From Verrucomicrobiaceae bacterium (GTDB taxonomy: Bacteria; Verrucomicrobiota; Verrucomicrobiae; Verrucomicrobiales; Akkermansiaceae): a stretch of 15,091 bases of DNA. Shown one piece after another: positions 1-14,695 of the stretch. Both the position numbers and the translations under genes were made by a program. The notes under the pieces were generated by a model. The model worked only from the letters and a program-made list of their open reading frames with translations, had not been told where the DNA came from and searched no databases. Within the stretch, counting starts at the first letter, position 1. The number at the start of each line of letters is the position of its first letter. The stretch lies in the NCBI GenBank assembly GCA_947372405.1, contig CANBTO010000055.1, positions 1 to 15,091 on the forward strand. The letters run 5' to 3'.

Positions 1-3000
1 AGGCAGAAGGATCTGCCTGACCGCCGTGTGCACCTTCGCGCCGTGCACGGTGATGCCTTCGATGAACATGTTAGGCATGTCCTTGAGATCGAGCGGCACC
101 GCGACTTCCATGCTTTTGCCATCGAGCTGGATGCGCTTCGCCTCGCGGCCCGCTCCGCCAGCAATGTGGAGGAAGAGCCAGACATTGGCGTTCTCACGGT
201 CGCTGTTGACGCGGAGTTTCACCGACTCGCCGGGCTTGTAATCGGTCTTGTCCGAAACCAGTTCGAGCGGGCCGAACTTCCATGCTTTGGGATCATCGCG
301 GCCGGGACCGTGGATGTTGAGGATGGTGGCTCCTTCCGCAGCCTCGCCGCCCTTGAACGAAAGGCTGGCGGCAAGCCGGTATTGGCCGGTGGCGGGTGCG
401 GCGAGTTGTTGTTTCAACTGGCCTTCGGCATCGGTTTCAGCGGGCCATGACTGGATTTCCTTTTCATCGACGCGGCCGTTCGCACCCATCACGAGCTGAT
501 AGAGTTTGAGCGTGCCTTTCGCACCGACGACCGGTTTGCCCGCCAGCGTGGCGGAGGAAACCGTGGCCTCTACGGCATCACCGGCTTTGGCATAACCCCG
601 GTCCGTCCAGACCACCACTTCAAAGGGTTTGCGCGCGGCGATGACCGAGCCCGTGCCACGTTCCTCGCGACGCGAGGCGTCCACCACCCGGGCCTCGATG
701 GAATAACGCGCATCCATGTCGCCCTGGACGGCCTTGGCGGTGGAGGTGTCGATCTCCACCTTGGCGGTGCCGTCCGCACTGATCGGGACGTTTTGTTTGA
801 GAACCAGTTCGTCCGGCGTCCAGCGGTTGCCCTGCCACCACGGCGGATTCGGCGGGATGCAGCCCCAACTCTTCCATGTGGGATGCCACGAGGCTTCCGC
901 GCCGTTCCACCATGCGCCTGAGCCATAGAGCCAGTCCCAGCGCCACACCGGGAACCAGCGCTCACCGAGCGACGAGCGCTTGACGATGATCTCGACGTTC
1001 GCGTTTCTAACAGGCGCGCCGTGGAAGTAGCTGGCCTTCACCGTGGCGGTGAACTTGTCGCCGAGTCTCACCGTTTCTTCGGGAGCCACCACCTTCACCT
1101 CGTATTCCGGCTTGCGGTATTCCTCGACCTGGATGGCCACGGAAGCGGTGATCTGGTCGGGAATCTGATAGACGGCGCTCCACTGCCCGAGCGGCGCGTC
1201 CTTCGGGATGACGACTTCGGATTCGACGGAGCCAAGCGCGTCGGTCCTGAGGTTCTCGATTTTCATCGCCTCCTCGCCGCGGCCGTTGTTGAGGACGAGC
1301 GTGCCGGTCTTGTTCGCCCAGCGGGAGTCATCGGGCTTGAAGTAGCCGAGATTGCGCATGAAAAACTTGAGATGCACCTTGTCGCCCGGCTTGTAGAGCG
1401 GCCGGTCGCTGATGCCGTATGACAGGTCACGGTTGCCGTTTTCCCAATCCGCTTCCTGCACGTAGTATGGCTGGAATCCGAAGAATGCCGGACTGCGGCC
1501 CTTCTTGCGCGCGATGGCGAGCCATTGGTAGTTTTCATTCCAATCGCCGGGTTTGAGCAGGGTTTTGCCATCGGCATCGGTGGTGCGGTTGAACTCCTTC
1601 ACCTTCACATCCATGCGGCGGCCGAGCGGCAGCTTGCGTTCATGATAGATCGCCTGGTAACCGAAAAACTGGATCTCGGATTCCGCGACCGGCGCACCGC
1701 CATCGGCATCGGCGACCCACCACTGGATCCTGCCGGCGGTGTCGCGCTGGACGAGCACGGAATCGACGATCCAGACGAGCGTGTGAAACTCATTGCCATC
1801 GCCGATTTTTCCGGTGACCCACCAGGCTCCGGCCTTGTCGAGCGGCACTTCGATCTCGGTGCGGGTGTCGCGGTGTTTGTCACCGGGTGTGAGTGGCGCT
1901 TCCCATGTCGCGGCGACGGCACCGATGAACTTGGCCTTCTTGCCGGTGATCAACTGGCTGGCGATCTCCGACGGATTCACACGCTCCTCGTTGAGATTGG
2001 AGGGATTACTTCGCAGGTAATCCAGCGTTTCCTTGATCACCGCCTCCATGTCCACCGGCGCGGCTGTTAGAGTGATCTTCGAGGCGTTGCGGAACACCAG
2101 CAGCAGCTTCGGTTTCACACCGGCAGGAACGGTTTCCGCGGATTCGAAACGCCCCCAGTTGCCGGTGATCTGCTTGAGGAGTTTCTTGCGGTGGTCCTCA
2201 TAACCCGCGCCGTGTTTGGCGATGGTTTTTTCCAACACCTCGCGGGCCGTGTCGTATTGGCGGCGGTTGAGGAAGACCTGGGCGAGCGCGTCACCAGCCT
2301 GGCTGCTTTGATCAAGGATTGAGCGATAAAGCGCGATGAAATGCTGGGCTGCGGGGAGTTTGAAACGGCGGACGCCATCGGAGGTCTTGGCGAGGCATTC
2401 ATCCTCGGTGAGCGTGTCCATTTCAAGAATGCCTTTGGCGCTTTCCGGGTCCTGCTGCCGCCACCAACCGTAGGATGAAAGCGTTTCCGTGCCGAACTGG
2501 GATTGCGAGAAACGCGCGAGTTGCAGCGTGACTTCGTATGCGGCGGCAGGCTTGAGCCGGGCTTCCTCCGCCAGCGCGAAACGCCAGCGTTCACTATCGT
2601 TTTTCGCGGTCTCCCATGATGCGGGCACTTCGTAAAGCACCGGCCCGTCCTTCGCCCATGGCGCACCTTCGGTGCCGCCTTCGGGTCCGGGCTCACCCCA
2701 TTCCGGCAGAGCGTCGATGGGTGTTAGAGTCTGGAGTTTCCATGACTCGCCGTTGTGAAGGTTTCCCGCCAGATTTCCCCAGATGTGGTGACGCGCGTCG
2801 TCGTCTTTTGCCATGGCGAGCGCCTGACGGAACAACTGCAGCGACCGGATGTGATCGCGGTAAGTCGTTTCCACGGCAGCGCCGGAGGACGCCTCGGGAT
2901 CTTCGGACGGCATCATTCCCCGTCTGCCATAACGGAATGCGCCGTCGCGTTTGAATTCTCCGGCGATCAATCTTCCTCCATGGGGGACCCGGACGTATGC

Positions 3001-3300
3001 CACCGCGGCGGATTCGAGCAGCGCGGCGTTTTCCGGATGCGAGGAAACCGCCTTCTCCACCAGAACGTCGAACTCGCCCCATGCATCGAGTCCCCTTACG
3101 GCCTCAATGGCTTCGCTCAGATCCTCACCGGATTCCGCATCCGAGACGGGCAGCAGTTTTTCCGAATAATGCTTCAACGCATCCCGCCACAGACCGCGCT
3201 TGTGGAGCTTGTCACGCTCCTTGCGCGAGCCGACCGCGTCCTGCGCCATCAGATTGAGGGGGAGAAAAACAGCGAAACACAGGTAGGCCAGGATTTTCAT
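1..3300 (-). CDS. Alpha-2-macroglobulin family protein, N-terminal part (runs off left edge)
   Basis: About 1100 residues are visible; the C-terminus lies outside the window. The start at 3300 gives a clear Sec signal peptide: basic MK, hydrophobic core, and a likely signal peptidase cut after LNLMA at residue 19. There is no lipobox, so a secreted or periplasmic protein is expected. Residues ~20-400 look helical and repeat-like (TPR-like), followed by macroglobulin beta domains. Diagnostic motifs are DRPLYKPGD (ending at residue 640) and EEYRKPEYEV (~722-731), both typical of bacterial A2M proteins. A tryptophan-rich stretch lies at ~781-828. Bacterial A2Ms are thought to trap or inhibit proteases in the cell envelope. 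Whether this one has the thioester motif cannot be seen, because that lies in the missing C-terminal part. It is divergent from the SDR gene, with 127 bp between the two starts. The frame was checked at four points along the gene (2727, 2070, 1011 and 75) and stays open. Confidence 0.88.
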   Translation of the reverse strand, partial: MKILAYLCFAVFLPLNLMAQDAVGSRKERDKLHKRGLWRDALKHYSEKLLPVSDAESGEDLSEAIEAVRGLDAWGEFDVLVEKAVSSHPENAALLESAAVAYVRVPHGGRLIAGEFKRDGAFRYGRRGMMPSEDPEASSGAAVETTYRDHIRSLQLFRQALAMAKDDDARHHIWGNLAGNLHNGESWKLQTLTPIDALPEWGEPGPEGGTEGAPWAKDGPVLYEVPASWETAKNDSERWRFALAEEARLKPAAAYEVTLQLARFSQSQFGTETLSSYGWWRQQDPESAKGILEMDTLTEDECLAKTSDGVRRFKLPAAQHFIALYRSILDQSSQAGDALAQVFLNRRQYDTAREVLEKTIAKHGAGYEDHRKKLLKQITGNWGRFESAETVPAGVKPKLLLVFRNASKITLTAAPVDMEAVIKETLDYLRSNPSNLNEERVNPSEIASQLITGKKAKFIGAVAATWEAPLTPGDKHRDTRTEIEVPLDKAGAWWVTGKIGDGNEFHTLVWIVDSVLVQRDTAGRIQWWVADADGGAPVAESEIQFFGYQAIYHERKLPLGRRMDVKVKEFNRTTDADGKTLLKPGDWNENYQWLAIARKKGRSPAFFGFQPYYVQEADWENGNRDLSYGISDRPLYKPGDKVHLKFFMRNLGYFKPDDSRWANKTGTLVLNNGRGEEAMKIENLRTDALGSVESEVVIPKDAPLGQWSAVYQIPDQITASVAIQVEEYRKPEYEVKVVAPEETVRLGDKFTATVKASYFHGAPVRNANVEIIVKRSSLGERWFPVWRWDWLYGSGAWWNGAEASWHPTWKSWGCIPPNPPWWQGNRWTPDELVLKQNVPISADGTAKVEIDTSTAKAVQGDMDARYSIEARVVDASRREERGTGSVIAARKPFEVVVWTDRGYAKAGDAVEATVSSATLAGKPVVGAKGTLKLYQLVMGANGRVDEKEIQSWPAETDAEGQLKQQLAAPATGQYRLAASLSFKGGEAAEGATILNIHGPGRDDPKAWKFGPLELVSDKTDYKPGESVKLRVNSDRENANVWLFLHIAGGAGREAKRIQLDGKSMEVAVPLDLKDMPNMFIEGITVHGAKVHTAVRQILLP

Positions 3301-3427
3301 GACATCGGGAATGACACACGAGCGGCCATTTCCTTAGAAGGAAAATCGTGGATTTCCTCCAAACCGCTTCCTTTGAAAAACATGCCGCCGCTACTTGACG
3401 GGGAACCCCTCCCCTCCAAGTTCCGCC

Positions 3428-4335: not shown

Positions 4336-4380
4336 GGCAACCACGGAAACCGTGTGCCGGAAAAATCATTCAAAATTCCT

Positions 4381-4407
4381 GTTAACCATTCGTCGATCCG
4401 CTACGAC
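4381..4407 (+). promoter_or_regulatory. Candidate ECF sigma-dependent promoter of the RiPP operon
   Basis: GTTAACC (4381-4387) is followed after 16 bp by CGAC (4404-4407). ECF promoters typically have an AAC-containing -35 element and a CG-containing -10 element at this spacing, and ECF sigma factors often transcribe their own operon. The predicted start would be near 4413, giving a leader of about 55 nt. The match is short, so this is a hypothesis. Confidence 0.35.
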
Positions 4408-4469
4408 TTACCTTTGTCGCCCATCATTCGCGGGCGCAAAACCAAACAAACAACCAAACCAATACCGAC

Positions 4470-4844
4470 ATGAAAAACAGCAAATTAATCACCGCCGCCG
4501 TTCTCGGACTCCTCAGCGCCGGTTCCATCGCCACCCAAGCCGCCACCGCCGGAACCATCGCACCCGCCGAAAAGGAAGGCTGCAAGGGCAAGGACGGCTG
4601 CAAGGGCGAGAAGAAGGATGAGAAAAAGGACGGCACCTTCGCCTACGTTGCTCCTGCGGACAAGGATGCCTGCAAGGGCAAGGATGCCTGCAAGGGCAAG
4701 GATGGCTGCAAAGGTGAGAAGAAGGACGCTAAAAAGGACGGCACCTTGGCCTACGTGGCTCCTGCGGACAAGGATGCATGCAAGGGCAAAGACGGTTGCA
4801 AGGGTGAGAAGAAGGACGCGAAGAAAGAAGGCACCATCCTCTAA
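4470..4844 (+). CDS. Secreted Lys/Cys-rich repeat peptide, putative MNIO-modified RiPP precursor (bufferin/HvfA-like)
   Basis: 124 residues. Residues 1-24 or 1-27 form a Sec signal peptide: MKNSK, a hydrophobic core, and a cut near ATQA or AATA. The rest is low-complexity and made of three related units (starting at residues 31, 61 and 97), each opening with APA[ED]K and containing CKGK/CKGE boxes followed by GEKKD and KK. Seven cysteines (38, 44, 68, 74, 80, 104, 110) are all followed by KG, all preceded by an acidic residue plus G or A, and spaced exactly six residues apart within a unit. There are no cysteines in the signal. This matches precursors of MNIO (DUF692) enzymes, which carry a signal peptide and repeated Cys motifs, and the MNIO and DUF2063 genes lie in the same operon. 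The expected product is an exported peptide with oxidatively modified cysteines that binds a metal such as copper. I infer the function from context and composition, not from a known family match. Confidence 0.78.
   Translation: MKNSKLITAAVLGLLSAGSIATQAATAGTIAPAEKEGCKGKDGCKGEKKDEKKDGTFAYVAPADKDACKGKDACKGKDGCKGEKKDAKKDGTLAYVAPADKDACKGKDGCKGEKKDAKKEGTIL
4560..4841 (+). repeat. In-gene tandem repeat of the precursor (3 units)
   Basis: Three imperfect units at 4560-4649 (30 codons), 4650-4757 (36 codons) and 4758-4841 (28 codons). The middle unit is longer by one extra six-codon Cys module (DACKGK). The pattern suggests growth or shrinkage by 18-bp and ~90-bp slippage or recombination. Confidence 0.85.
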
Positions 4845-4851
4845 CCACCAC

Positions 4852-4887
4852 ATGTTCCGCCACGGTCATCCGGCCGTGGCGGAACAT
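4852..4887 (+). terminator. 14-bp perfect hairpin between precursor and doxX (attenuator or processing stem)
   Basis: The arms ATGTTCCGCCACGG and CCGTGGCGGAACAT (4852-4865 and 4874-4887) pair perfectly around an 8-nt loop. It begins 8 nt after the precursor stop codon. No T-tract follows (the next bases are TCCCCC), so full intrinsic termination is unlikely. Partial termination, or a stem that protects the upstream mRNA from 3' decay, would give more precursor than enzyme. Confidence 0.6.
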
Positions 4888-4908
4888 TCCCCCGCACACC
4901 TTTGCACC

Positions 4909-5382
4909 ATGAAATTCAGGAAACCGTTCGCCATTGTCGGAACACTAACACCTTGTTTGCAATCCGCGGTCTTGCTGATGATCCGAATCACCATGGGCTG
5001 GGGTTTTTTCCTGACAGGCAAGGGCAAGCTTCTTCACCTTGAAAAAACCACAAACTTTTTCGCATCGCTGAATCTGCCTGCTCCCAAGTTCCAGGCCATG
5101 CTCGCTGGTTCCACCGAGATGTGCGGCGGTCTCCTGCTGCTGGCGGGTCTCGGCACGCGCCTCATTTCCATCCCACTCGCCTTCACCATGGTGGTCGCCT
5201 ACCTGACGGCGCACCGGGAAGATGCGTTCAAGTCACTTTCGGATTTCACCGACCAGGCCCCCTTCCCTTTCCTGATGGCCGCCCTGGTGACGCTCGCGTT
5301 CGGCGCGGGGAAAATCTCGCTCGACCATCTGCTCAAGCCGCTGTTTGACAAGGTTTGCCCCCTCCATACCGTGCCGTCGTGA
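4909..5382 (+). CDS. DoxX-like integral membrane protein (BufD/HvfD-like position)
   Basis: 157 residues with four predicted membrane helices (about 19-37, 63-82, 85-101, 118-133), the size and layout of DoxX family proteins. Characteristic features are RITMGWGFFLTGKGKL at the end of helix 1, and E70 with a GG-rich helix 2. DoxX proteins recur in MNIO/DUF2063 operons, but their role there is not settled; a membrane accessory in export or quinone-linked redox is an inference. ATG 4909 is chosen because it sits just after the intergenic hairpin. The frame stays open upstream across the precursor repeats, but that extension is Arg-rich low-complexity sequence and is not believed. The stop overlaps the sigma factor's GTG start (GTGA). 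Confidence 0.82.
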   Translation: MKFRKPFAIVGTLTPCLQSAVLLMIRITMGWGFFLTGKGKLLHLEKTTNFFASLNLPAPKFQAMLAGSTEMCGGLLLLAGLGTRLISIPLAFTMVVAYLTAHREDAFKSLSDFTDQAPFPFLMAALVTLAFGAGKISLDHLLKPLFDKVCPLHTVPS

Positions 5383-5957
5383 ATTCACCTGACGAAATTC
5401 TCATTGATGATCTCATGGAACACGCGCTGGCACTTTACGGTTATGCCTACGCGCGGCTGAGAAACCACCATCTCGCGGAGGATCTCGTGCAGGACAGCCT
5501 GATCGCCGCATGGAAATCACGTGAAAACTATCAGGGCGGAGCCGCTCTAACATCATGGCTCACCGGCATCCTGCGCCACAAGATGATGGACCACCACCGC
5601 TCGGCTTCGCGCAGGCCAGTGGAATCGCTCGATGCAAGGGCGGAACGCAACGGTTCCACAAAGGATCTTTTCAGCGATAGCGGCGACTGGGCCATCGATC
5701 CCAACCACGGCATGCATGAGCTGATGCAGTCCCCCGCCAAAGCCGCGCAGAACTCGGACCTGCGCAAGTGGATCACCCTCTGCATGGAGAAACTCCCCGA
5801 CCGCCTGCACATCCTCTTCACCGCCCGCGAGGTGGACGAGCTCCCGGTGGCGGACGCCGCGAAAGTCGCGGGTGTCACGGCAGGCAGCGCCGCGGTGCTG
5901 CTCACCCGCGCCCGCCAGATGCTGCGGCTCTGCCTGCAGGAATCCCTGAACCGATGA
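5379..5957 (+). CDS. ECF-type RNA polymerase sigma factor
   Basis: 192 residues from a GTG start at 5379 that overlaps the doxX stop codon by 4 bp, implying translational coupling. An in-frame TTG at 5355 is possible but less likely. Region 2 covers residues ~14-75, with ARLRNHHLAEDLVQDSLIAA (core-binding helix) and LTSWLTGILRHKMMDHHR (-10 recognition). Region 4 covers ~139-187, with LPDRLHILFTAREVDELPVA and a helix-turn-helix (AAKVAGVTAGSAAVLLTRAR). The linker between regions (~80-135) is longer than average. It most likely transcribes its own operon. It is followed at once by the zinc-finger protein (ATGA overlap), the usual sigma/anti-sigma arrangement. Confidence 0.9.
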   Translation: MNSPDEILIDDLMEHALALYGYAYARLRNHHLAEDLVQDSLIAAWKSRENYQGGAALTSWLTGILRHKMMDHHRSASRRPVESLDARAERNGSTKDLFSDSGDWAIDPNHGMHELMQSPAKAAQNSDLRKWITLCMEKLPDRLHILFTAREVDELPVADAAKVAGVTAGSAAVLLTRARQMLRLCLQESLNR

Positions 5958-6301
5958 AACCTTCCCTGCCGCCACCGCCAGCGTCCTACCGCAGGAGCCA
6001 CGTCGTGCTGGCTCCCGTGCTCAAACTCCTGCACATGTCGTGCAACCATTACTCGGACCTCACCCTGCAGTCGATGGACCGGCCACTCGACTTCGGCGAG
6101 AAACTGCGCCTGAGACTCCACTACCTCGCATGTTCCATGTGCCGTGACTTCCAGAAGCAGATGAACGCGCTTTCCGCACTTGTGAAAAGCACCTTCGCCA
6201 GCCAGGAACCGGCCAAGCCCGCCCCCGCCTTCCTTGAAACCGTCCGCGGAAAACTAACAGAGATCGCGGGTGACGAAGGAAAGTCCCCCGGTCCAGACTG
6301 A
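5954..6301 (+). CDS. Zinc-finger (ZAS-type) putative anti-sigma factor, soluble
   Basis: 115 residues; the ATG overlaps the sigma stop codon by 4 bp. It contains the ZAS signature C30 ... H56-x3-C60-x2-C63 (HYLACSMC), which in ZAS anti-sigma factors binds zinc and clamps the sigma factor. The N-terminus is proline-rich. There is no transmembrane helix, so unlike many anti-sigmas it should be cytoplasmic and could sense metal or thiol stress directly through the Cys/His site. Identification rests on the motif and on its place after an ECF sigma gene. A larger open frame begins upstream inside the sigma gene, but the coupled ATG is the sensible start. Confidence 0.75.
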   Translation: MKPSLPPPPASYRRSHVVLAPVLKLLHMSCNHYSDLTLQSMDRPLDFGEKLRLRLHYLACSMCRDFQKQMNALSALVKSTFASQEPAKPAPAFLETVRGKLTEIAGDEGKSPGPD

Positions 6302-6308
6302 TTGAACC

Positions 6309-7175
6309 ATGGCGCACCCGAGATTCACCGGAGGCAAAACACTCGGCACGGGCATCGGCCTGCGCGTGCCGCACTACGACCACATCCTCGTCGAGAAACC
6401 CGCGGTGGACTGGTTCGAGATCATTTCGGAAAACTTCATGGTCCGAGGCGGCCGGCCGCTCGCCGTGCTGGACACCATCCTCGAACAATACCAGGTGGTG
6501 CAGCACGGCGTGGGCCTCTACCCCGGCGGCGCGAAGGGCCTGGACATGGACCACCTCCGCCGCCTCAAGGAACTGGTGAAACGCACGAACACCCCTTGGA
6601 TCTCCGACCATCTCTGCTGGGGAAGCGTGGACGGCAGCATGAGCCACGACCTGCTGCCCCTGCCCTACACCTTCGAGGCTGTTAGAAAAACCGCGGAGAA
6701 CCTCCGCATCGCCCAGGATTTCCTCGAAGTGCCGCTGGCGATGGAAAACGTCAGCAGCTATGCCGAGTTCAACGACGACGAGATGACCGAGTGGGAGTTT
6801 CTATCAGAAGTCACCGAGTCCGCGGACGTCGGCATCCTGCTCGACGTGAACAACATCTACGTATCCTCAGTGAACCACGGCTTCGATCCGCTGGACTATG
6901 TCAATTTCGTCCCGGCCGACCGCGTGGCGCAGATCCACATCGCCGGGCACTCGCGCTACCAACGATTCATCATCGACACCCATGACCACCCGGTCACCGA
7001 CCCGGTATGGAAGCTCTACGCCCGCGCCATCGAGCGCTGCGGGCCGACGGCCACCCTGCTGGAATGGGACGCGAGCATCCCCTCATTCGAGGAGGTATGG
7101 ACCGAGGCGAAAAAATCCGAGAACTGGCGCGAGTGGCTGATCCAGGGAAAAGGAGGGAACGATGCCGGATCTTGA
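6309..7175 (+). CDS. MNIO (DUF692) multinuclear non-heme iron oxidase, BufB/HvfB-like
   Basis: 288 residues, full family length, TIM-barrel fold. Family segments seen in order: GIGLRVPHYDHIL (15-27), WFEIISENFM (35-44), QHGVGL (65-70), PWISDHLCW (96-104), AMENVSSYAEF (144-154), ILLDVNNIYVSSVNHGFDP (176-194), QIHIAGHS (208-215), IDTHDHPV (222-229), LLEWD (250-254). Candidate iron ligands are H66, H101, E146, D179, H190, H210, D223, H225 and E252, so the active site looks intact. MNIO enzymes use 2-3 iron ions and O2 to rearrange peptide cysteines (oxazolone/thioamide, thiooxazole or related products), with a partner protein that delivers the substrate. The likely substrate is the Cys-repeat peptide of the same operon. 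It starts 7 nt after the anti-sigma stop and overlaps the DUF2063 start by 14 bp. Confidence 0.93.
   Translation: MAHPRFTGGKTLGTGIGLRVPHYDHILVEKPAVDWFEIISENFMVRGGRPLAVLDTILEQYQVVQHGVGLYPGGAKGLDMDHLRRLKELVKRTNTPWISDHLCWGSVDGSMSHDLLPLPYTFEAVRKTAENLRIAQDFLEVPLAMENVSSYAEFNDDEMTEWEFLSEVTESADVGILLDVNNIYVSSVNHGFDPLDYVNFVPADRVAQIHIAGHSRYQRFIIDTHDHPVTDPVWKLYARAIERCGPTATLLEWDASIPSFEEVWTEAKKSENWREWLIQGKGGNDAGS
7151..7156 (+). promoter_or_regulatory. Strong Shine-Dalgarno AGGAGG for the DUF2063 gene
   Basis: A perfect AGGAGG lies inside the last codons of the MNIO gene, 5 nt before ATG 7162. It fixes the DUF2063 start and shows independent ribosome loading. Other starts in the window lack a comparable match. 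Confidence 0.8.
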
Positions 7176-8052
7176 CCAACTTCAGCGCGAGTTTTTCAAG
7201 GCGCTGCTGCTTCCCCTGCGTGGCTCCAGCAGGAACTCCACCGAGCTGTCGGCCACGGAGGAAGGGCATTCGCCCGAGTTTTTCCGCATCGCGGACGAGA
7301 TCATCAAACCCGGACCATCGCTCACATCCGCGGAGCGGCTGGAACTCTATCACCGGCAGTACTGGTTCCGCATCCTGGACTCGCTGGCCGAGGATTTCCC
7401 AGTCCTGCGAAAAATGGCGGGCGACGCCGTCTTCTGGGATCTGGTCGAGGCATATCTGCTTGAACGTCCGTCGCACAGTTTCACCCTGCGCCACCTCGGC
7501 GAGGCGTTTCCTGGATTCATCGGAACATCATCGCTACTAACAGAAACACAAAGGCGGTGGTTTGGCGCCGTGGCGGGCATCGAGTATGCGTTCATGGAAT
7601 GTTTCGAATCCGCGCAGGGTGCGCTGCCCGAGCCGGAGGATCTCGAATCCTCAATCATCGAACTTCAGGAACATGTCAAACTTCTCCACCTGCCGGTCCC
7701 CGCCGATCTCTGCTGGGAATGGCCGGATTTCTCAGCCGCCGAGGCCGTGGAGCCACAGGAAACCCACGTGGCAGTCTGGCGCGGGCCTTCCGGCCGGAGC
7801 CATCACGAACGCATCGAGGCGGCGGAAGTACCGCTACTGGTCCGGCTCAAAAAAGGCATTCTCCTGGCCGAGCTTTTCGATTCACTACCGGAGCCCGCGC
7901 CCACCGAAGAGGAGATCACCCGCTGGTTCGCCAAATGGCAAAGCCACCGCTGGCTGGGCGTGCGCGGCAAGGAAGGCAAACAGGAACTCGACTCCACCGG
8001 CGGCTGGCAAGGCATGGACCGCATGAGCTCGCAGGCGGTGACAATGGATTGA
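7162..8052 (+). CDS. DUF2063 domain protein, putative MNIO partner (BufC/HvfC-like)
   Basis: 296 residues. The N-terminal helical DUF2063 domain is seen in LQREFFKALLLPL (7-19) and in RLELYHRQYWFRILDSLAED then FPVL (59-82), the core signature of the family. The C-terminal half (~150-290) is a second, less conserved domain containing HLPVPADLCWEWPDF and an acidic patch PEPAPTEEE. In known systems the partner recognises the precursor leader and presents it to the MNIO enzyme, and both are needed for modification. It is translated from a strong Shine-Dalgarno within the MNIO gene and is the last gene of the operon; the next gene has its own promoter-like sequence. Confidence 0.88.
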   Translation: MPDLDQLQREFFKALLLPLRGSSRNSTELSATEEGHSPEFFRIADEIIKPGPSLTSAERLELYHRQYWFRILDSLAEDFPVLRKMAGDAVFWDLVEAYLLERPSHSFTLRHLGEAFPGFIGTSSLLTETQRRWFGAVAGIEYAFMECFESAQGALPEPEDLESSIIELQEHVKLLHLPVPADLCWEWPDFSAAEAVEPQETHVAVWRGPSGRSHHERIEAAEVPLLVRLKKGILLAELFDSLPEPAPTEEEITRWFAKWQSHRWLGVRGKEGKQELDSTGGWQGMDRMSSQAVTMD

Positions 8053-8086: not shown

Positions 8087-8115
8087 TTGACATGACTAAG
8101 TCACTTGACTAGGTT
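8087..8115 (+). promoter_or_regulatory. Candidate promoter with overlapping operator for the toxin-antitoxin pair
   Basis: TTGACA (8087-8092) is a perfect -35 box; 17 bp later is a weak -10, TAGGTT (8110-8115). Between them lies the palindrome TGACTAAGTCA (8093-8103), and TGACTA recurs at 8106-8111, one 13-bp step away. Palindromes overlapping the promoter are typical of autoregulated type II TA operons, where the antitoxin or the complex binds. Confidence 0.5.
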
Positions 8116-8122
8116 TCCACTC

Positions 8123-8398
8123 ATGAAAACCGTGTCGATTCATGAAGCCAAAACGCATCTGTCACGGCTGATTCAGCAGGCTTTGGATGGCGAGGAGATC
8201 ATCATCGCCAACCGCAACGAGCCGATGGTCCGGCTGGAAGTAATCCGTGAAAAACAAAGCGCTCGGCGCTTCGGTGGATTGAAGCCAATGGTCGTCGCGA
8301 TGGGGCCGTCGTTTGACGAACCGCTCGAGGATTTCGACGCCTATGCCCCGCCGGCGACGATGAAGGTGGCGGAGGATCCGGTGAATTACCGCGTATGA
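8123..8398 (+). CDS. Type II antitoxin, Phd/YefM family
   Basis: 91 residues. The N-terminal MKTVSIHEAKTHLSRLIQQA is the classic Phd/YefM DNA-binding fold (start strand, EAKxxLSxLI helix), followed by GEEIIIANRNEPMVRLEVI. The C-terminal tail (FDEPLEDFDAYAPP), acidic and likely unfolded, is the part expected to neutralise the toxin. ATG 8123 is preferred over an in-frame TTG at 8105, which would lie in the operator region. The stop overlaps the toxin start by 4 bp (ATGA), giving coupled synthesis. Confidence 0.9.
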   Translation: MKTVSIHEAKTHLSRLIQQALDGEEIIIANRNEPMVRLEVIREKQSARRFGGLKPMVVAMGPSFDEPLEDFDAYAPPATMKVAEDPVNYRV

Positions 8399-8784
8399 AA
8401 TTGCTGTTAGACACCCACACGATCCTCTGGATGGTAGCGGACGACGCGCGACTCACCGGGAATGCGCGGCGCATGATCTCTGATACGGCCGACATCGCAT
8501 GGAGCGTTGCCTCGCTATGGGAGATCGGCATCAAGCTCAGCCTGAACCGACCGGACTTCATGCTGCGGCAGGGTTGGGAACGGCTGATCCCCGAGGAAAT
8601 GACCCGCAACGGCATCCGCCGCCTGGATTTGCTGCCCGTCCACTGCGCGGCGGTTTCCAAGCTGCCATGGCATCATCGGGATCCATTCGACCGCCTGCTC
8701 GTCGCACAGGCCCGCTGCGAAAAACGCAAACTGCTGAGCTGCGATCCGGCATTGGATGCCTACGACGTGGCTCGCATCTGGTGA
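8395..8784 (+). CDS. vapC: PIN-domain toxin, VapC family
   Basis: 129 residues, normal VapC size. It opens with KLLLDTHTILW (D6). The other acidic metal-binding residues are E43 (SLWEIGIK), D96 and D99 (HRDPFDRLLVAQA), and D117 near the end (LLSCDPALD). PIN toxins are Mg-dependent RNases that stop growth by cutting tRNA or rRNA. The catalytic set looks complete, so the toxin is probably active. It is coupled to the Phd-type antitoxin through ATGA. The target RNA cannot be told from sequence. Confidence 0.92.
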   Translation: MKLLLDTHTILWMVADDARLTGNARRMISDTADIAWSVASLWEIGIKLSLNRPDFMLRQGWERLIPEEMTRNGIRRLDLLPVHCAAVSKLPWHHRDPFDRLLVAQARCEKRKLLSCDPALDAYDVARIW

Positions 8785-12897: not shown

Positions 12898-13048
12898 GGA
12901 GACGCCACGAGCGATGGCCGGACGTGGATGCTTTGTAAAGCCAAGGCCGAAAGAAGATTGAAAGAAGGTGAAATTTGGGATTGCGGAGGCTGACAACGAC
13001 TTCCTAGTGTCCTTCCACACGGAATTTAAAGCTCCACTTTACAAACCC

Positions 13049-13846
13049 ATGGCCAACGTCTTCGGAATCCTCACCGCCATCGTCCTCGCACTGTCGGCAT
13101 TCATCGCGTATCAGAACAAAAAGGCTTACGAGAACGAGATCTCGGAAACCGCTAACCAGAAGGGCAAACTCCGCGAAAGCGAGAAGAGGCTCAAAACCGC
13201 AAAAGACAACTTGGCCTCCACCATCGCCGAACGCACCGGTGTGGACGAGGAGAACCTCAGGTTGACAGGTGTTGAGGCGACCCAGAAAAAAGACAACGAG
13301 GACCTCAACCAACAGATCTCCGCCAAGACAACCAAAACCGCCGCCAACAAGGAGCAGCTCGACAAGTTTCGCGAACAGACATCGAAGATCGGCGACGTGA
13401 AGGAACTTGCCTCCAAGATGCGCCAGACCAACTCAGATCTTGAAGAGCTCGCCCAGTCGATCAAGGCAACCGATGACAAGCTGGCCAATCTCACTGCGGA
13501 CAACAACAAGACCGAGGCCCACGCTACTGCGATCAAGAAGAAGTTCGAGACCATCAGCAACGTGCTCTCGCTGCCGACGCTCAACACGCGCATCCGCTCG
13601 ATCTATCCTTCCTGGGGCTTTGTCACCCTTGCCGCAGGCAACAATGGCGGCGTCGTGGCAAACTCCACACTTGATGTCGTCCGCGGGAGCAACGTGATCG
13701 CCAAGCTGATGGTGACCGCGGTGGAAAGCAATTCCGCCTCCGCAAGCATCATCCCCGATTCCATGGCACAGGATGTCACACTGATGGTCGGCGACCGCGT
13801 CGTCCCCTCCCAGAAGTCCGCCGCTCCCCAACCTTCCAAAAACTGA
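13049..13846 (+). CDS. Membrane-anchored coiled-coil protein, paralogue A
   Basis: 265 residues. One N-terminal membrane helix (~4-21, VFGILTAIVLALSAFIAY) is followed by a long Lys/Glu/Asp-rich region with heptad-like character (~22-175) and a compact C-terminal beta-type domain (~178-255) containing PSWGFVTLAAGNNGG and LMVGDRVVPS. The tail is Pro/Ala-rich. The C-terminal domain aligns without gaps to that of the next gene. The protein probably projects into the periplasm. Family not identified; the final domain recalls SH3-like or FlgT-C-like beta domains, but this is a guess. ATG 13049 is preferred because it places the helix at the N-terminus; an in-frame GTG at 12968 would add 27 polar residues. 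Divergent from the ABC gene. Confidence 0.8.
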   Translation: MANVFGILTAIVLALSAFIAYQNKKAYENEISETANQKGKLRESEKRLKTAKDNLASTIAERTGVDEENLRLTGVEATQKKDNEDLNQQISAKTTKTAANKEQLDKFREQTSKIGDVKELASKMRQTNSDLEELAQSIKATDDKLANLTADNNKTEAHATAIKKKFETISNVLSLPTLNTRIRSIYPSWGFVTLAAGNNGGVVANSTLDVVRGSNVIAKLMVTAVESNSASASIIPDSMAQDVTLMVGDRVVPSQKSAAPQPSKN

Positions 13847-13885: not shown

Positions 13886-14695
13886 ATGAAAGCCATTCTT
13901 TACGTTGTTGCCATCATCGCAGCACTTGGTGCCGTCTACTTCACTCTGGATCACACCAAGAAGTTCGAAGCGCTCCAGACCGTCCGCCGTGAAACCATCG
14001 CAACCAACAAGAAAACTTCCGCAGATGCGGACGTGACGGAAAACAAGCTCAAACATGAAAAGGAAGTGCTTGTGACTTCCACTTCACGCCGCGAGGAACT
14101 CACCCAGAGCATCACCACTCTCAAGTCCACCGGCTCCACCCTGAAACGTCAGGTTGATGAACTGGACGCCACGCTGGCAGCTCAGGATGCGGAATTCGCG
14201 GAACTGAAAAAAACCTTGGAGGAGGTCAACAAGATCCTCAAGGACCTCGGTGGCAACGTGACGCTCGAAAGTCTCCCCGATAAGATCAAGGAGATCGAGG
14301 CGGATAAGAAATCCCGCCAGGACAAGCTTGAGGAACTCCAGACACTCGTGGCGGCCGCCGAAAAACTGCTTGAGAAAAACCGCGCGGAAGTGGACCGCTT
14401 GATGAAGCGCGACATGGAGCGCAACAGCCACATCGGCCGCAACTCGATGGAGTCCGTGGTCACTGCCGTCAACCAGGACTGGGGTTTCCTCGTCATCGGA
14501 GCGGGATCGAACTCGGGCTTCACCCCGCAGACCAGCCTCATCGTGCAGCGCAACGGTCGGCTTATCGGACGCGTCCATCCATCGGCGATCGAGCCGACCC
14601 AGACCATCGCCGAGATCGATTTCAACAGCCTGGCCACCGGCGTGCGGCTTCAGCCGGGTGACCGCGTGATTCTTTCCAAGCCCGCCACGAACTGA
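13886..14695 (+). CDS. Membrane-anchored coiled-coil protein, paralogue B
   Basis: 269 residues with the same plan as paralogue A: N-terminal membrane helix (~3-20, AILYVVAIIAALGAVYFTL), a long charged coiled coil (~25-180), then a C-terminal domain (~190-265) with NQDWGFLVIGAGSNSG, LIVQRNGRLIGRV and LQPGDRVILS. It follows paralogue A by 39 bp in the same direction, so they are probably co-transcribed and may form a hetero-oligomer. Function unknown. A strong terminator follows. Confidence 0.82.
   Translation: MKAILYVVAIIAALGAVYFTLDHTKKFEALQTVRRETIATNKKTSADADVTENKLKHEKEVLVTSTSRREELTQSITTLKSTGSTLKRQVDELDATLAAQDAEFAELKKTLEEVNKILKDLGGNVTLESLPDKIKEIEADKKSRQDKLEELQTLVAAAEKLLEKNRAEVDRLMKRDMERNSHIGRNSMESVVTAVNQDWGFLVIGAGSNSGFTPQTSLIVQRNGRLIGRVHPSAIEPTQTIAEIDFNSLATGVRLQPGDRVILSKPATN

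Follow-up and report, generated by a model that had tools for sequence, protein, structure and literature searches.

Our analysis indicates that the window, by which we mean the whole 15,091-nucleotide stretch of Akkermansiaceae DNA studied here (contig CANBTO010000055.1), probably carries a captophorin-type operon, bufferin-like and of the Cys-Lys class, with a redox or metal switch of its own. Six co-directed genes, read as open reading frames (ORFs) between 4470 and 8052 on the plus strand, encode in this order a cysteine-rich precursor peptide, a DoxX protein, an ECF sigma factor, a zinc anti-sigma factor, an MNIO enzyme and a DUF2063 protein. An earlier sequence-only reading had proposed these six genes at this place; all were found there, with family matches for every one except the precursor. 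The gene content, its conserved order, the enzyme families, the spacing of the zinc ligands, an upstream dyad, a hairpin and the kinship of the precursor with Cys-Lys peptides were all read from the sequence.

Precursor peptide

The cysteines of the precursor are at positions 38, 44, 68, 74, 80, 104 and 110, with a spacing period of 36 residues, and its DNA shows 2.2 copies of a 108-nt repeat, with 88% matches. The repeat units, in the style CKGKDGCKG, are rich in Lys, Glu and Asp. The earlier description of three long units with seven cysteines agrees with the three cassettes found at this period. Two traits of captophorins are present, namely a Cys-rich precursor inside the cluster (7 Cys per 124 residues) and multiple Cys-Lys motifs (Lys follows 7 of the 7 cysteines). 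The start of the peptide is signal-peptide-like by eye and in alignment with relatives (highest 19-residue hydropathy 1.58, at residue 6), and the leader aligns with, and resembles, those of Buf2-like precursors.

A protein database search with the precursor gave nine relatives at E up to 0.001. Five of them (P0001-P0005) have the CKGKDGCKG style and the Ile-Leu end of the window precursor, and the other four (P0006-P0009) are looser. No Pfam match was found at E up to 1. The NCBIfam BufA2 model matched 23 of 25 scanned precursors, chosen among those found, at E up to 1; none of the ten tabulated relative precursors reached the cut-off of 60 bits (best 50.1 bits, L005 unmatched). We therefore place the precursor family with the Buf2-like or Cys-Lys peptides, outside the curated BufA2 model. 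The best NCBIfam E-values for the precursor were those of collagen-like adhesins, far under their cut-offs (SclA, E 7.9e-5, 22.4 bits against 400). A collagen-like adhesin identity was rejected, as these are low-complexity matches.

The EGKCG motif does not occur in the window precursor. The sequence-only reading was therefore right that this peptide differs from the short EGKCG-type peptides, but its closest kin are the Cys-Lys or Buf2-like peptides and not the EGKCG type against which it had been measured. An EGKCG-type precursor was rejected, since the motif is absent and the MNIO residues are wrong for it.

Enzymes and DoxX protein

The MNIO scored 340.8 against a cut-off of 310 with the NCBIfam BufB model (NF050167) and 348.4 against 25 with Pfam DUF692/MNIO (PF05114), and it aligned with PDB 3bww at E 6.7e-46. 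The DUF2063 protein, whose gene adjoins that of the MNIO, scored 63.4 against 27.2 with PF09836; a PDB sequence search with it gave nothing meaningful (best E 0.091). The DoxX protein, translated from 4852, scored 76.6 against 23.6 with PF07681 and 84.7 against 80 with HvfX (NF050144). An MNIO, a DUF2063 protein and a DoxX protein had been named beside the Cys peptide, and the BufB, PF09836 and HvfX cut-offs are all passed.

By the aligned motif, which is LLERDF in PDB 3bww and LLEWDA in the window MNIO, we take Asp254 to correspond to the FonB catalytic Asp; the next residue is Ala255. The window MNIO has Val at position 20, the second Arg site, where none of the 101 rows of the comparison described below has Arg.

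MNIO lineage and its precursors

The comparison covered 101 loci: 80 from a scan of contigs for MNIO (the best 80 of at least 573 confirmed loci), 20 wider regions, and the window. The 20 regions came from 26 MNIO-matched genomes among 244 of one family, that of G002, evenly drawn from a larger group. Of the 80 scan loci, 71 contain an ORF on the same strand that has two or more CKG motifs and four or more Cys; most of these encode six-Cys peptides of Acidobacteriota and Verrucomicrobiota.

A maximum-likelihood tree of the 101 MNIOs places the window in a branch of 23 rows (bootstrap 100, SH-aLRT 99) and unites the seven six-gene loci in a branch of their own (98/91). Four genomes (G134, G070, G084 and G046) each have a second MNIO with a canonical six-Cys precursor. 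These second copies group apart (100/99), and therefore the lineage is not merely the local Buf2 form. In G147 the second MNIO match was partial and 30% identical.

Precursors were assigned for 93 of the 101 loci. The loci left out of the counts are L022, L052, L057, L066, L069, L072, L074 and L122; by eye, Cys peptides or fragments are present in six of these and none was seen in L057 and L074. The assigned precursors of the clade end in Ile-Leu in 21 of 22 cases (one in Ile-Ile), versus none of the 71 others, and their median K+D+E fraction is 0.515 versus 0.23. Their Cys count ranges from 3 to 8. Homologous operons without a Cys peptide had been named as the case that would speak against a peptide-modifying system. 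Every locus of the clade has such a peptide or a piece of one, which is a fragment at a contig end in L122 and lies on another contig in L001.

Substrate reading by an MNIO has been reported to depend in part on the residue that follows its catalytic Asp, which is Phe in Lys-Cys and Asp in Cys-Lys enzymes (PMC13097082, available part). At the position of window residue 255, the 101 loci have Asp in 71, Ala in 16 (including the window), Gly in 11, and Glu, Asn and Gln in one each. We counted the residues after Cys in the loci with an assigned precursor, with the N-terminal 22 residues of each excluded; the counts are uncorrected for the kinship among the rows. Lys follows 310 of 394 cysteines in the 66 Asp loci. 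In the 14 Ala loci, Lys follows 55 of 87 cysteines and Ser 15, and in the 10 Gly loci Pro follows 32 of 42. There are exceptions. In the window itself, all 7 cysteines are followed by Lys although the enzyme has Ala; near-canonical precursors accompany Ala in L042 and L032, and Cys-Lys/Cys-Ser precursors accompany Gly in L004 and L044. No precursor was assigned for L074 and L052, which also have Ala. A strict tie of the Asp-to-Ala change to the precursor type was rejected on account of L042, L032 and L004/L044. By these comparisons, the precursor and the substrate-reading residue of the MNIO belong to a branch for which we found no description.

In L119-L127 (for example L127:3880-4485 and L120:3638-4210) we observed repeat-built orthologous precursors in which a single Cys is followed by Pro, DDCPGKDKEKKEE, with up to 7 Cys. 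The MNIOs beside them have Gly at the substrate-reading position. Another peptide, CSGKSGCSGKD...KKKDKKKDK, was seen at L052:4711-4929, beside an MNIO that is a long-branch sister of the clade. Its contig is labelled Deltaproteobacteria, by which either a mislabelled bin or a transfer would be indicated.

Gene order in relatives

The gene order of the window was found in seven loci: the window, L002, L003, L113, L114, L115, and L001 (genome G001), where it is spread over two contigs, with sigma through DUF2063 on one and the precursor and DoxX genes near the end of another. The sequence-only reading had proposed looking for this order among Verrucomicrobiota, and it does occur in these Akkermansiaceae relatives. 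Elsewhere in the clade, L005 (Luteolibacter pohnpeiensis) has precursor-MNIO-DUF2063-DoxX-sigma-anti-sigma and L128 has precursor-MNIO-DUF2063-DoxX. The other 14 loci have precursor-MNIO-DUF2063 (the precursor of L122 being the fragment), with no DoxX or sigma match within the fetched flanks.

Outside the clade, tblastn at E up to 0.01 placed a sigma match within the fetched flanks of 27 of 78 loci, and in 22 of these 27 an ORF with HxxxCxxC follows; some of the sigma matches are 1-2 kb from the precursor and many loci end early, and the counts describe proximity, not operon membership. Sigma genes are reported to be absent from Buf2 clusters in the available part of a survey (PMC12452194). 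These sigma-bearing loci qualify that report, with the reservation that the precursors seen in them score below the BufA2 cut-off.

Hairpin between the precursor and DoxX genes

A hairpin of 16 pairs was found in the precursor-DoxX interval of the window (-32.9 kcal/mol for the folded 75-nt stretch); neither this hairpin nor the upstream dyad described below had been noted in the sequence-only reading. A stem is present at this interval in 7 of 7 six-gene operons. Its consensus has 12 pairs; 8 of them show one or more compensatory double changes, and some do not form in one or two of the rows. L114 and L115 are near-copies in this alignment. The z-scores against mononucleotide shuffles were -2.2 to -6.7. 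The hairpin may act as a brake or as a stabiliser.

Sigma factor, anti-sigma factor and dyad

The sigma factor matched sigma regions 2 and 4 and passed the ECF superfamily model (TIGR02937, 72.9 against 42.9). An ortholog, one in each, was found in seven relatives among 22 genomes searched, with 51-72% identity. The anti-sigma factor had no Pfam match and scored 55.8 against 50 with NF052368. Its putative ligands are C30, H56, C60 and C63 (C-26-H-4-C-3-C), and no membrane segment was seen (highest 19-residue hydropathy 0.66). This is the pattern of ZAS proteins, that is, a Cys, 26 residues on His-x3-Cys-x2-Cys, and no membrane segment. The zinc ligands are at positions 4, 30, 34 and 37 in MseR and 11, 37, 41 and 44 in RsrA (PMC2893595, available part), and their Cys/His spacing is identical to that of the window protein. 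Regulation encoded inside the operon, as the sequence-only reading had it, is supported by the presence of sigma and zinc anti-sigma genes; its reach had been drawn too narrowly, since the control exerted by the window sigma factor probably extends beyond the operon, as judged from the following sites.

All five six-gene operons that were aligned (window, L002, L003, L113 and L115) carry the dyad TGTTAA-N17/18-CGACTYA ahead of the precursor gene. It was defined from these five, in which the surrounding upstream sequence is poorly alignable; L114 is cut off 37 nt before the precursor. The window has one match against none in 200 shuffles, with a pattern that was itself built from alignments containing that site. 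The strict dyad gave 14 matches in 13 genomes versus 8 for the reversed control. The relaxed dyad gave 19 matches in 16 genomes, 18 of them in the seven sigma-ortholog genomes and one in the nine others. As the control counts are not low and base composition matters, the case for the dyad rests on position.

Six relaxed matches precede precursors, including those of G001 and G187. The single match in G001 led blind to the missing precursor and DoxX gene of that genome. The other putative targets were read, by sequence, in the genomes of relatives. G002 has one match before msrA-msrB and one before DUF547-TIGR04282, and in G003 a match precedes msrB/msrA-like ORFs, which by eye are apparently broken. 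Seven further targets were found in G187: genes for an ArsM-like protein, a small membrane-like ORF, ArsS, a DUF547 protein, a CMD-domain protein, a Pyr_redox flavoprotein and a VTT-domain protein. The sigma factor of this genome is 51% identical to that of the window, and its captophorin operon, which carries a relaxed dyad, is on a separate contig from an arsenosugar-type cluster. This cluster (L147, G187:C101:44500-64000) has its own sigma/zinc anti-sigma pair and five dyad copies. ArsS scored 425.7 against 300, and the ArsM-like protein remained below its NCBIfam cut-off (341.1 against 500). Two arsenosugar glycosyltransferase names were above the cut-off (TIGR04282, 192.5 against 134; TIGR04283, 233.2 against 182).

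In L004, L044, L116, L119, L120, L121, L123 and L124, which have no linked sigma gene, another pattern was seen by eye upstream of the precursor, approximately TGGAATAAT, followed in several by TCTCAT/TCGTAT-like sequence. Some other sigma factor may act there.

Layout of the window and neighbouring genes

Overlaps of 4-14 bp had been noted at most junctions, and three of the five junctions do overlap: DoxX/sigma by 4 nt (given the sigma start at GTG 5379), sigma/anti-sigma by 4 nt and MNIO/DUF2063 by 14 nt. The anti-sigma and MNIO genes are separated by 7 nt. The precursor and DoxX genes do not overlap; with ATG 4909 as the DoxX start the gap is 64 nt, and with a start at 4852 it is 7 nt. We placed the start at 4909 because the DoxX of the relative G001 suggests it.

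Features of the six-gene operon and its putative signals in the window
Feature	Position	Strand	Basis or remark
Promoter-like dyad TGTTAA-N18-CGACTTA	4380..4410	+	putative site for the ECF sigma factor encoded in the operon
Precursor peptide, 124 aa, 7 Cys, three CKGKDGCKG-type cassettes, C-terminus GTIL	4470..4844	+	
RNA hairpin, precursor-DoxX interval	4852..4887	+	folding, comparison of seven operons
DoxX/HvfX-type membrane protein	4909..5382	+	PF07681, NF050144
ECF sigma factor	5379..5957	+	GTG 5379 likely start, TTG 5355 possible
Soluble zinc anti-sigma factor, C30/H56/C60/C63	5954..6301	+	NF052368, spacing, hydropathy
MNIO, BufB-type, Asp254-Ala255	6309..7175	+	NF050167, PDB 3bww alignment
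DUF2063 partner protein (PME type 1)	7162..8052	+	PF09836

Immediately 3' of the operon, at 8105-8784 on the plus strand, there is a pair of a Phd/YefM-type antitoxin and a PIN-domain toxin. On the minus strand, positions 1-3333 hold a single frame of 1111 residues that leaves the window, with a signal-like start and, by eye, of the alpha-2-macroglobulin type. Two adjoining coiled-coil-like proteins with C-terminal ends alike by eye are encoded at 12968-13846 and 13886-14695 on the plus strand; the former had no Pfam match. A scan of the window gave no tRNA and no Rfam family at gathering score.

Comparison with known systems

The six-gene architecture has a precedent, because the Neisseria operon NMB2140-2145 holds the same gene kinds and regulates msrAB. 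In the available parts of two reports (PMC2893595, PMC2954202), NMB2140-2145/NGO1948-1943 is an autoregulated operon whose sigma factor controls msrA/msrB; the NMB numbers presumably correspond to the NGO numbers. This sigma-E operon (gonophorin, MseR) also shares the zinc-ligand spacing with the window. Its order is DoxX-precursor-MNIO-DUF2063-sigma-anti-sigma, whereas the window has DoxX-sigma-anti-sigma between precursor and MNIO, and its precursor has the EGKCG motifs (PMC13097082, available part) that the window precursor lacks.

Control by an ECF sigma factor and a small soluble anti-sigma factor is likewise shared with the Haemophilus hvf operon and its RpoE2/HrsE regulon (oxazolin). 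RpoE2 has been reported to control msrAB and a doxX-MNIO-DUF2063 cluster on hypochlorite (PMC7907618, available part). In Haemophilus, however, the sigma genes are elsewhere, near msrAB, and the precursor is of the EGKCG kind (PMC13097082, available part), while the window has its sigma gene in the operon.

The Buf2 (BufA2) bufferins and Cys-Lys captophorins share with the window the CKGxxxCKG motif, a similar leader, a BufB-type MNIO, DUF2063 and DoxX (PMC12452194 and PMC13097082, available parts). The window differs from Buf2 in its 7 Cys in charged 36-residue repeats, the C-terminal Ile-Leu, Ala in place of Asp in the enzyme, and the presence of sigma genes. Six-Cys DUF692 precursors have also been described from Antarctic soil, in Proteobacteria (PMC8692599, available part). 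As far as sequence comparison goes, the architecture is thus precedented, and the gene order, the precursor class and the reading residue of the enzyme are different.

No occurrence of CKGKDGC, CKGKDAC, CKGKNSC or DDCPGKD was found in open-access paper text, supplements excluded. In the open-access literature we found nothing that joins MNIO, sigma factor and arsenic, or arsenosugar, sigma factor and Verrucomicrobiota, and among the matches listed none joins DUF692/MNIO/thiooxazole with Luteolibacter or Akkermansiaceae.

Proposed working and alternatives

In the working that we propose, thiol or metal(loid) stress would cause the zinc anti-sigma factor to release the ECF sigma factor. The freed sigma factor would initiate transcription from the dyad, which lies 60-90 nt ahead of the precursor, and would also switch on further stress genes, msrAB among them, and the hairpin 3' of the precursor gene may bring the precursor into excess over the enzymes. 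In the cytoplasm, the DUF2063 protein would present the precursor to the MNIO, which would form 5-thiooxazole-type groups from the cysteines in the CKGKDGCKG cassettes. The putative Sec signal would then export the peptide to the periplasm, where it may bind copper or a different soft metal, and DoxX may assist at the membrane.

Several observations weigh against the captophorin reading. The precursor scored 14.9 bits with BufA2, below the cut-off of 60, and its 7 Cys depart from the 6 or 12 conserved Cys of Buf2 precursors (PMC12452194, available part). The window MNIO has Ala where Asp, published for Cys-Lys enzymes, follows the catalytic Asp. The DUF2063 protein scored 42 against 142 with NCBIfam HvfC, and the sigma factor 116.8 against 162.2 with TIGR02943. 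For the relaxed dyad, the reversed control gave 12 matches in the seven sigma-bearing genomes and 2 in the nine others, and dyad counts as proof on their own were rejected, as this control is not low. Three of the 19 relaxed matches are at no sensible promoter (G065:C32, G086:C116 and G006:C233), and the match for the small membrane-like ORF in G187 is some 200 nt away. G005, the genome of L005, whose sigma factor has 43% identity and which was counted among the nine others, has neither the strict nor the relaxed dyad.

The system might instead defend against metalloids or hypochlorite and not copper, in which case the sigma factor would govern the response to thiol stress in general and the peptide would bind arsenite or take up oxidants. 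We regard this as possible, though clearly not the favoured explanation. It draws on the clustering of the G187 sigma/anti-sigma pair with ArsS, the ArsM-like methyltransferase and arsenosugar glycosyltransferases, on the dyad before several of these and before the captophorin operon, on the msrA and msrB targets in G002 and G003, and on the hypochlorite response driven by RpoE2 in Haemophilus. However, co-regulation with arsenic genes is not equal to binding, the captophorins tested elsewhere bind copper (PMC13097082, available part), and Pfam and NCBIfam matches gave no arsenic gene inside the six-gene operon of the window. It seems improbable that the peptide escapes modification and is a metallothionein-like or Lys-rich surface protein, with the MNIO substrate elsewhere and the genes mere neighbours. 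The low-complexity KGKDG repeat, for which SclA has a better E-value than BufA2 (E 0.023), and the strong charge of the clade precursors are in favour of this reading. Yet the precursor is directly 5' of the MNIO in the sigma-less loci of the clade, its leader is like those of Buf2-like precursors, the reading residue shifts along with the precursor motif apart from the exceptions noted, and each of eight genomes searched (E up to 1e-10) has one MNIO copy. A lengthened EGKCG/oxazolin (Lys-Cys) system is hardly credible: DoxX, MNIO, DUF2063 and ECF regulation are common to the Haemophilus and Neisseria systems, but the window precursor is Cys-Lys and its MNIO has neither the Phe seen in the ERDF of 3bww nor Arg at position 20.

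Beyond the captophorin reading itself, a wider and rather unlikely extension would place this Akkermansiaceae MNIO lineage outside both published rules (Lys-Cys/Phe and Cys-Lys/Asp). An Ala or Gly reader would modify charged repeat precursors whose sites run from Cys-Lys through Cys-Ser to single Cys-Pro. In the sigma-bearing branch, the peptide might handle arsenite instead of or besides copper, because in this extension it would share one thiol/metalloid regulon with arsenosugar synthesis and Msr repair.

Implications

The lineage offers a natural series for testing how MNIOs choose cysteines, in which the enzyme goes from Asp to Ala to Gly and the substrate from Cys-Lys to Cys-Pro. Control by a sigma factor and a zinc anti-sigma factor would be extended to Cys-Lys clusters, for which the available part of the survey (PMC12452194) reported none. 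Our findings also suggest a testable link between metal-binding ribosomally synthesized and post-translationally modified peptides and arsenosugar genes.

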